64,000 nucleotides of DNA from Elusimicrobium sp. (GTDB lineage Bacteria; Elusimicrobiota; Elusimicrobia; Elusimicrobiales; Elusimicrobiaceae): assembly GCA_015062115.1 (NCBI GenBank), contig SUVG01000001.1, forward strand, positions 62,001-126,000. Reading direction: 5' to 3'. The first letter of the stretch is position 1, and every line of letters begins with the position of its first letter. Both the position numbers and the translations under genes were made by a program. Positions 34,174-36,371 of this stretch are shown piece after piece. The notes beneath the pieces were generated by a model, which did no database searches, had not been told where the DNA came from, and saw nothing but the letters and a program-made list of their open reading frames with translations.

Positions 34174-34902
34174 CTATTTAATAACGGTACCCGTTTGACC
34201 TGTTTGATAATGCACGATACGAATTTCCACCCCTTTTTCTTTGGCTAAGCGCACAGCATCGGGGTGGAGCACATTGGCACCGTTCAAGGCCAACTTATAC
34301 ATTTCGTCAAAATCTAAAACTTCGTATTTTTGGGCCTTTGTGTCTTTGTTGGGGTCTGCGGAATAAACGCCGTCCACATCTTTTACCATTTCTACATGGT
34401 CAGCCCCTAATTGAGCGGCCAAAAACACGGCCGACACATCGGATCCGCCGCGCTTAAGCGTGGTGATTTCTTTGTTTTCGCCAATCCCTTGGAAACCGGC
34501 CACTATCGGCACATGGCCTTCTTGCACTTCTTTTACCAAACGGTCTCCTTTAAGGGACAGAATATCGGCCCCCGTATGCGTGCAGGTAGTAATAAGGCCG
34601 ATTTGGGAACCCGTTAAAGATACGGACGGTACCCCTTGGGCACGCAGAGCAATGGAAAGAAGGGCCACGCTGACACGCTCCCCGGTGGTAACCAGCATAT
34701 CCAATTCCCGTTTATCCGGATTGGGAGCAATGCTGTAGGCATGGTCTAAAAGAACATCGGTTAAATTCCCGTTAGCGGAAGCCACCACCACCGGAATATA
34801 ATTATCCTCGTAGCGGGACTTAATCAATTCCGCCGCCATTAAAAGTTTTTGTTTGTTGGCCAGCGTATTGCCGCCAAATTTCATGATGCAAATTTGTCTC
34901 AT
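34174..34902 (-). CDS. lysC: Aspartokinase catalytic domain, lacking ACT regulatory domains
   Basis: Phosphorylates aspartate in the first step of the lysine/threonine/methionine pathway. The kinase fold is complete: MKFGGNTL, TTGERVSVALL, TLKRGGSDVSAV and KDVDGVYSADP. The protein ends at 242 residues, right after the catalytic domain, while usual aspartokinases continue ~150 residues with two ACT domains that bind lysine or threonine. It may therefore escape allosteric feedback, leaving control to transcription; a lysine attenuator precedes the operon. I start at 34902, after AGGACAAAAT, 8 bp behind lysA. The frame extends to a GTG at 34920, which would overlap lysA and is less likely. Confidence 0.88.
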   Translation of the reverse strand: MRQICIMKFGGNTLANKQKLLMAAELIKSRYEDNYIPVVVASANGNLTDVLLDHAYSIAPNPDKRELDMLVTTGERVSVALLSIALRAQGVPSVSLTGSQIGLITTCTHTGADILSLKGDRLVKEVQEGHVPIVAGFQGIGENKEITTLKRGGSDVSAVFLAAQLGADHVEMVKDVDGVYSADPNKDTKAQKYEVLDFDEMYKLALNGANVLHPDAVRLAKEKGVEIRIVHYQTGQTGTVIK

Positions 34903-34910
34903 ATTTTGTC

Positions 34911-36161
34911 CTATAACCACGGAGCTACCGCGTGGCCGGAAAGCATCTCTTCGTAAGAAGTCCGCTTCCGCACGACGGCAAACTCGCCGCCGCGAACCAT
35001 CACTTCGGGCACTAACGGGCGGAAATTATAAATGGAAGACATCGCCGCGCCATAAGCCCCAGCACACATTATAGCAAGTAGTTCGCCCGCTTGGGTAGGC
35101 TCAATAATACGCGCATGGGCAAAAACATCTCCCGATTCGCAAATCGGGCCGACGATATCGGCAATGATGGGGGCTGTGCCGTGTTTGGTAACGGGCAAAA
35201 TAGTGTGCCACGCATCATATAAGGCCGGACGAATCAAATCGTTCATACCCGCATCCACAATAATAAAATTCTTTTCCCCGTTGGTTTTGTTATACACCAC
35301 TTCCGTAACCAAAATACCGGCGTTTCCCACAATAGAGCGCCCCGGCTCCACAATAATATGTTTATTCAGGTGCCCGAGCGTTTCTTTGACCACTTGCGCA
35401 TAGGCCGCACAGGTGGGCGGGAGTTCCACATTATAGTTAATTCCCATACCGCCGCCTAAGTCGATATTGCTAATTTCAATACCTTCCTTTTCCAGTTCTT
35501 GTACCATAGAAGCAATTTTGGTAAATGCCAGACGGAAAGGTTCCACATCTAAAAGTTGTGAGCCGATATGCACCGCAATCCCCGCGATACGCACTCCTTC
35601 CATTTGTGCGGCACGGCGGTAAAGCGACAGGGCCTCTTCCCAAGCCACCCCGAATTTATTTTCTTTTTTACCCGTTGTAATTTTTACATGGGTCAACGCA
35701 TCTACATCGGGGTTTACCCGCAGGGCCACATTGGCTTTTTTGCCTTGTTCTACAGCCAAGCGGTTGATGAGTTCCAGTTCGGCTTCGGATTCGGCATTGA
35801 TTTGCAAAATATTCATTTTAATTGCTTCCGCCAATTCTTCCCGCGTTTTCCCCACACCGGAAAAAACAATTTTGTCCGCCGGAATACCCGCCTTCAACGC
35901 CACATACATTTCCCCGGCCGACACCACATCGGCCCCTCCCCCCAGGCGGGCCAAGGCAGCCACCACGCTTAGATTGGGGTTGGCCTTTACAGAGTAACAA
36001 ATGGTGGCGTTTTCGTCGGCCAGTGCGCGGCGGTAAGCGTCAAAATTGCGGGTCAATTTTTCCGTAGAGTAACAATAAAAGGGCGTACCGACTTGTTCAG
36101 CTATTTTTTTGATGGAAACTTCCTCCGCGCGAAGTTCTCCGTTTTGGTAATGAAAGCACAT
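34911..36161 (-). CDS. lysA: Diaminopimelate decarboxylase
   Basis: A PLP enzyme (416 residues) that turns meso-diaminopimelate into lysine, the last step of the pathway. It shows the fold III PLP lysine in CYSVKANPNLSVVAAL, the HIGSQ motif, GGGMGINY and the C-terminal CESGDVF and GAYGAAM motifs. The start at 36161 follows AAAGGAGAAAATACT; an upstream in-frame extension would reach into the attenuator hairpin and is unlikely. It is the first large gene after the leader peptide and terminator, and the only route to it from the visible promoter passes that terminator. Confidence 0.96.
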   Translation of the reverse strand: MCFHYQNGELRAEEVSIKKIAEQVGTPFYCYSTEKLTRNFDAYRRALADENATICYSVKANPNLSVVAALARLGGGADVVSAGEMYVALKAGIPADKIVFSGVGKTREELAEAIKMNILQINAESEAELELINRLAVEQGKKANVALRVNPDVDALTHVKITTGKKENKFGVAWEEALSLYRRAAQMEGVRIAGIAVHIGSQLLDVEPFRLAFTKIASMVQELEKEGIEISNIDLGGGMGINYNVELPPTCAAYAQVVKETLGHLNKHIIVEPGRSIVGNAGILVTEVVYNKTNGEKNFIIVDAGMNDLIRPALYDAWHTILPVTKHGTAPIIADIVGPICESGDVFAHARIIEPTQAGELLAIMCAGAYGAAMSSIYNFRPLVPEVMVRGGEFAVVRKRTSYEEMLSGHAVAPWL

Positions 36162-36182: not shown

Positions 36183-36213
36183 AAAAAAACCTCCGCTTAC
36201 AATTAAGCGGAGG
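36183..36213 (-). terminator. Attenuator terminator in the lysA leader
   Basis: A perfect 10-bp stem (CCTCCGCTTA/TAAGCGGAGG on the minus strand), ATTG loop and T7 tail end 22 bp before the lysA start and lie after the leader peptide stop. The loop and upper 3' arm (AATTGTAAGC) are exactly complementary to GCTTACAATT near the end of the leader ORF (36257-36266), so a competing antiterminator can form. Confidence 0.88.
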
Positions 36214-36242
36214 TCATGCAAATTTATAAATTTTAGGTGGCT

Positions 36243-36335
36243 TTAATTATCCGCAAAATTGTAAGCAAAAGCGCAAGAGTGTTTTTTGCTCTTGTTTTGT
36301 TTGCTTACGCGTTTAACGAATAATTGTGTTGCCAT
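36243..36335 (-). CDS. Candidate lysine leader peptide (30 residues)
   Basis: A short ORF between the lysA promoter and its terminator. The 30 codons contain five Lys (positions 8, 12, 15, 17, 18) and one Arg, clustered in the first 18 residues: a stall site for ribosomes short of Lys-tRNA. Codons 10-12 carry GTAAGCAAA, which pairs with TTTGCTTAC (36261-36269) further along the ORF; that segment also pairs with the terminator. A -10 ends 6 nt before the ATG, so the peptide would be translated from a leaderless mRNA. The layout matches classical transcription attenuation. No similar leader is known to me for this phylum. Confidence 0.72.
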   Translation of the reverse strand: MATQLFVKRVSKQNKSKKHSCAFAYNFADN

Positions 36336-36341
36336 ACGCTT

Positions 36342-36371
36342 AGTATAACATAAATAAAAATCTTTGCGCAA
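36342..36371 (-). promoter_or_regulatory. Promoter of the lysine operon, leaderless configuration
   Basis: On the minus strand TTGCGC (36366-36371), an 18-bp spacer and an extended -10 TGTTATACT (hexamer 36342-36347) are followed by only AAGCGT before the leader peptide ATG. Transcription should begin at or next to the A of that ATG. Confidence 0.65.

Follow-up and report, generated by a model that had tools for sequence, protein, structure and literature searches.

The window analysed here, a stretch of 64,000 nt, belongs to the 1.44 Mb genome of a member of the Elusimicrobiaceae (Elusimicrobiota), in the genus called Avelusimicrobium, which comprises gut bacteria. On its minus strand, lysA (34911..36161, ATG at 36161, preceded by AAAGGAG) encodes diaminopimelate decarboxylase, as judged from a score of 493.7 bits with TIGR01048, which is above the cut-off. 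It is followed by lysC (34174..34902) encoding aspartate kinase, which overlaps the end of lysA and likewise scores above the cut-off with TIGR00657 (226.5 bits). The start of lysC is probably located at 34902 (MRQICIMKFGG), judging from the relatives. PF00696 is the only Pfam domain of the protein, i.e. LysC, with approximately 242 residues, consists of the catalytic domain alone and lacks an ACT domain. The same short form occurs in those relatives whose downstream stretch contains the whole gene, and no other aspartokinase was found in the genome. Past lysC and a 55-codon ORF, the same strand encodes an F420-0:gamma-glutamyl ligase-like protein (PF01996, 32835-33959).

The region upstream of lysA carries a promoter (36342..36371, minus strand) composed of the -35 element TTGCGC (36371-36366), an 18-bp spacer and the TG-extended -10 element TATACT (36347-36342); relatives have a promoter at the same place, following the pattern TTGC..-17/18-TA[TCA]A[CG]T. 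Six nt past the -10 element, the ATG at 36335 opens a candidate leaderless leader ORF of 30 codons (MATQLFVKRVSKQNKSKKHSCAFAYNFADN, 36243..36335), which is without a Shine-Dalgarno sequence and in which five codons (8, 12, 15, 17 and 18) specify Lys. On the same strand, segment 1 (GTAAGCAAA, 36300..36308), corresponding to codons 10-12, pairs with segment 2 and thereby protects the terminator. Nested inside this 1:2 pairing, a small hairpin CAAGAG/CTCTTG (36274..36294; arms 36294-36289 and 36279-36274) lies over Lys15-Lys18. Segment 2 (36250..36269), the 5' strand of the antiterminator, comprises TTTGCTTACAATT (36269-36257) and GCGGA (36254-36250); the former consists of TTTGCTTAC (36269-36261) continuing through GCTTACAATT (36266-36257). 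Its counterpart, segment 3 (36195..36211), provides the 3' strand of the antiterminator and comprises TCCGC (36211-36207) in the 5' arm of the terminator as well as AATTGTAAGC (36204-36195) in the loop and the upper 3' arm. The intrinsic terminator (CCTCCGCTT / AAGCGGAGG, 36183..36213) has its stem at 36213-36190 and its T7 run at 36189-36183, 21 nt before lysA. Since sequence located just 3' of segment 2 is also complementary to the 5' half of the ORF, the entire ORF forms one long protector hairpin in many relatives. The neighbouring gene upstream of the leader is encoded on the opposite strand and differs between genomes. Promoter, ORF, segments and terminator had all been proposed in a first-pass annotation and were confirmed base by base, including an additional GCGG/CCGC pairing, which is represented by GCGGA facing TCCGC in the antiterminator. 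A start between terminator and lysA had been named in that annotation as an objection to its reading; the 21 nt that separate the T-run from lysA are too short to accommodate a promoter.

For comparison, the regions upstream of lysA were taken from relatives, and 28 distinct ones were aligned; these sequences are related and do not represent independent samples. Promoter, an ORF of approximately 30 codons and intrinsic terminator are kept in front of lysA-lysC in 28 of 28 cases. Codons 8, 12, 15, 17 and 18 specify Lys in every sequence, while AAA and AAG are exchanged at four of these five positions: at the third position of the Lys codons, A was counted 88 times and G 52 times in the 28 sequences, C or T never. 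The ORF and its Lys codons, whose loss or replacement in related genomes would have spoken against the earlier reading, thus persist throughout the alignment. The residues between the lysines do change (Q/H, N/I/D/S, S/G/A), and within the first 19 codons no position besides the start and the five Lys codons is invariant at the amino acid level, Q13 being retained in 27 of 28 sequences. The core conserved across the genus can be written as K-x3/4-KQNKSKK, and insertions and deletions located 5' of it comprise whole codons. One relative (L013) carries a one-base insertion after Lys18, which shifts the frame, and another (L030) has a stop at codon 22; both keep the Lys codons and segment 2. Coding constraint ends after Lys18, and conservation concerns the RNA together with the Lys codons and not the peptide.

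The distance between the -10 element and the ATG is exactly 6 nt in all 28 sequences, with the six nucleotides themselves varying freely. Constant spacing with free sequence is what a leaderless start requires, and the same layout of TA-box, 6 nt and ATG is found at other genes of the genome, among them genes that we take from their translations to encode nucleoside diphosphate kinase and ribosomal protein L21. Both observations back the leaderless reading of the ORF given in the first-pass annotation. In the genome (G000, loci L142-L168), a TATAAT-like hexamer precedes the ATG of many genes by 6 nt, and leaderless messages may be common in Elusimicrobiota. Among the ATGs located behind TATACT-like -10 sites, the lysine leader is the only case that combines a short ORF, a terminator and a gene, so that no second attenuator of this layout was found in this set; most of the others are ordinary genes with probable leaderless starts.

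Next, we consider the RNA structure. The leader folds with -50.6 kcal/mol, as compared to -30.4 kcal/mol (sd 3.5) for dinucleotide shuffles (z = -5.84), and none of 200 shuffles reached a value as low. In the free fold, the 1:2 protector forms. When the RNA up to segment 1 was removed, in keeping with the folding check that had been suggested previously, the minimum-energy fold switched to the long 2:3 antiterminator, which occupies the 5' arm, the loop and the upper 3' arm of the terminator. RNAalifold, provided with the alignment alone, also returned the antiterminator and not the terminator. Across the 28 relatives, 93.5% of the cells of the 2:3 pairing are paired and six pairs changed on both sides; double-change cells amount to 22, versus 6.0 in shuffles (0 of 500 as high). 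When the partner was displaced by one to three columns, pairing fell to 35-40%. The most informative positions are columns 155-160, which change together with segment 2 even though they belong to the terminator loop or to the uppermost part of the terminator stem. The terminator is kept in position with a GC stem followed by T7, and 90% of its stem cells are paired. The most divergent clade (L029, L030 and L038) has a rewritten terminator stem, and its segment 2 has changed along with the stem. Segments 2 and 3 of the same sequence bind each other better than partners swapped across clades in 489 of 540 comparisons. Covariation of the 1:2 pairing is weaker than that of 2:3, with 83.9% of cells paired and one pair showing double changes, and the nested hairpin CAAGAG/CTCTTG has 95.8% of cells paired with two such pairs. 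Covariation, which might have contradicted the alternative pairing, supports it in the case of 2:3.

The effect of ribosome position was addressed with an equilibrium folding model, in which partial transcripts of the 28 sequences ended just past segment 3 and the ribosomal A-site was placed at individual codons. In the model, the mean probability of the antiterminator was 0.12 in the absence of a ribosome and 0.01 with the ribosome at the stop codon. A ribosome stalled at Lys12 or Lys15 raised the mean to 0.90 and 0.88, respectively, with values above 0.5 in 27 of 28 sequences. At Lys17 the mean was 0.69 (21 of 28), and a stall at Lys18 alone freed segment 2 in only 12 of 28 models. When the stall was moved along the ORF in the model, permissive positions extended over approximately codons 2-17, containing four of the five invariant lysines and bordering the fifth. 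In L207 and L200, the antiterminator was predicted for the truncated RNA also in the absence of a ribosome. For full-length transcripts carrying a stalled ribosome, the equilibrium still mostly favours the terminator (mean 0.71-0.76). Antitermination must therefore be kinetic, with the decision falling while the RNA is being synthesised; the same is accepted for classical attenuators of the trp type.

Taken together, the data very probably reflect a classical ribosome-mediated transcription attenuator of the trp/his type, in which the regulatory codons specify Lys and the leader gene is leaderless. The Lys codons present in 28 of 28 sequences, the covariation of 2:3 and the two-state folding all argue for classical attenuation, which had been the proposal of the first-pass annotation. 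The leader shares with the trp/his type an ORF containing codons for the end product, a terminator, a mutually exclusive 2:3 pairing and a 1:2 protector located over the regulatory codons; the behaviour that a stall at Lys frees the antiterminator and a ribosome at the stop codon does not is reproduced in the folding model. We infer that the transcript starts at or beside the AUG, that the ORF is translated and that the ribosome loads at once. With Lys-tRNA charged, the ribosome would reach the stop codon and cover segment 2 or let 1:2 re-form, whereupon the 3:4 terminator would fold and transcription end before lysA. When charged Lys-tRNA is scarce, the ribosome would wait at Lys codons 8-18 and block segment 1, so that segment 2 could pair with the emerging segment 3. 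The terminator would then not be made in time, and lysA-lysC would be transcribed.

The breadth of the permissive codon range raises the question of specificity. A general sensor of translation rate would antiterminate upon any stall within codons 2-17, be it caused by starvation or by translation inhibitors, and the model does behave in this way, which is however also true of classical attenuators. Within this codon range, invariance is limited to the start and the Lys codons, and the genes under control serve lysine synthesis. We regard a switch that is not specific for lysine as unlikely. Still less probable, in our estimate, is that the ORF product acts as a nascent arrest peptide or represents a functional small protein, in which case the peptide sequence and not the charging of Lys-tRNA would be sensed. 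Lys-rich nascent chains can slow ribosomes and conservation of the core K-x3/4-KQNKSKK extends through the genus, but the lysines stay constant whereas the intervening residues vary, and the frame beyond Lys18 is lost or terminated early in the two relatives described above. Moreover, leader peptides in sister genera (see below) are unrelated and share nothing but Lys richness and position.

A metabolite-binding riboswitch or a T-box might alternatively drive the terminator, the ORF being incidental. Lysine riboswitches likewise employ a terminator and an antiterminator upstream of lysA. However, conservation in the leader proceeds codon by codon, with AAA/AAG exchanges and whole-codon indels, and no known aptamer matched. 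Searches of the window with Rfam yielded no match at the gathering score, the best sub-threshold matches lying far below the cut-off. The lysine riboswitch (RF00168) was found in none of 90 genomes of the family, while the control search was positive in four known genomes. T-boxes gave no match at the gathering score in the window, nor up to an E-value of 10 around the leader. Accordingly, we rate this explanation as very improbable. Finally, a terminator that belongs to the upstream region or is plainly polar, accompanied by features arising by chance, has a negligible probability and stands refuted by the comparison of relatives: a single AT-rich sequence may well show short complementarities, but no shuffle folds as well, conservation and covariation extend over 28 relatives, and the neighbouring gene lies on the opposite strand and varies between genomes.

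To see how far the attenuator extends, we turned to its distribution. lysA is present in 35 of 66 genomes of the genus. The leader was detected in 34 of these 35 genomes and in none of the 31 genomes without lysA (Fisher p = 5e-18, calculated ignoring kinship); in the remaining lysA genome, the gene is cut by the start of the contig. About half of the genomes of the genus are without lysA, some of them being more than 95% complete, and lysine auxotrophy seems to have arisen often in the genus. When matches to the Lys core were collected with a 20-nt pattern, those with two mismatches proved too loose and were excluded. In one genome (G037; L194, approximately 979-1150) the Lys leader occurs a second time as an orphan. 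This copy has a promoter-like site and a terminator, but no gene follows on the same strand; a relic or a small RNA are candidate readings.

Beyond the genus, one genome of sister genus g12 and two of g15 have leaders at the same place before lysA, which encode Lys-rich peptides unrelated in sequence (MLKNAKKTDSVKKGSKKTLGA, MVNLISLKKAGIKIMGIKKSPYLSACDFVGK and MLTATVLKKAGKMTMGLKKAPYTFACDFADR). Each of these ORFs begins 6-7 nt past a -10 site and precedes a terminator, for which a matching segment 2 is present. In a third genome of g15, there is a Lys-rich ORF without the appearance of a leaderless gene. No leader was found before lysA in L201 (g12) and L204 (g15), nor at five lysA genes of g15 that follow an ABC-transporter gene. 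In part of g15 (L203, L208, L209 and L210), the gene immediately preceding lysA encodes an LptB-like ABC transporter; lysA itself is more divergent here and has no leader. In the next family of the order (f2), 20 lysA upstream regions were read and no leader was found; here, lysA mostly follows a tRNA-Leu gene. LysA of the genus is 52-57% identical to alphaproteobacterial LysA and approximately 45% or less to LysA of the neighbouring family within the order, a pattern which suggests lateral transfer. Upstream of alphaproteobacterial lysA genes, nine scattered matches to K-rich short ORFs were obtained, which amount to no consistent leader.

Bacterial control of lysine synthesis is known mainly from the lysine riboswitch, Lys T-boxes and allosteric aspartokinases. 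Since LysC of this lineage has no ACT domain, lysine feedback on the lysA-lysC operon may operate mainly through the leader; with LysC being single-domain and the sole aspartokinase found, allosteric lysine feedback may be missing altogether. If the attenuator operates as proposed, sensing of charged tRNA by the translating ribosome also serves lysine, and classical attenuation extends to Elusimicrobiota, for which the one paper found describes a histidine repressor instead (PMC9413887). The constant leaderless start would provide a clean case of transcription-translation coupling from nucleotide one. While attenuation of this type is textbook knowledge and leaderless cases have been described, specificity for lysine is likely to be new. 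In the literature searched, which took in only a minority of subscription papers, we found no earlier description of a lysine leader peptide. A survey of premature terminators does not mention lysine (PMC2965389), and a survey of Actinobacteria reports no lysine RNA elements there, naming the riboswitch for lysine elsewhere (PMC1262725). On balance we favour the view that this is the first leader-peptide attenuator specific for lysine and, within Elusimicrobiota, the first ribosome-mediated attenuator of any kind. It would represent a leaderless main lysine feedback in a lineage devoid of the lysine riboswitch and of an ACT-domain aspartokinase, and the peptide would have been rewritten from one sister genus to another, retaining nothing but its Lys codons and the logic of the antiterminator.

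Among known systems, the attenuators of trpL, hisL, thrL, leuL and pheL (Rfam Trp_leader, His_leader, Phe_leader and others) resemble the lysine leader in their end-product codons, in the 1:2, 2:3 and 3:4 pairings and in their place before a biosynthetic gene. In contrast to trpL-type attenuators, the present leader has Lys codons and no Shine-Dalgarno sequence, belongs to another phylum and shows no sequence relation at Rfam cut-offs. The lysine riboswitch also exerts lysine feedback through a terminator and an antiterminator, but binds lysine directly and is absent from genome and family. A suggested leader peptide of Sinorhizobium meliloti, SEP5, located upstream of an aspartate dehydrogenase gene, contains Thr and some Lys codons; this mixed cluster is a suggestion of the authors and was presented without an attenuator structure (PMC10117765). 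In mycobacteria, leaderless polycysteine ORFs act as attenuators, according to Canestrari et al. 2020 (doi 10.1111/mmi.14498) as cited in PMC13236596; as far as that citation goes, they are alike in being leaderless short ORFs with codons for the end product, and differ in amino acid and phylum. Upstream of mycobacterial cys operons, intrinsic terminators were not observed (PMC1262725). The S. meliloti trpL leader (rnTrpL/peTrpL) is likewise a leaderless attenuator, as its mRNA begins with the AUG of the ORF and is subject to classical attenuation (PMC10117765). It differs from the lysine leader in responding to tryptophan, in comprising 14 codons and in belonging to an alphaproteobacterium, in which both peptide and RNA have additional roles in trans (PMC10117765).
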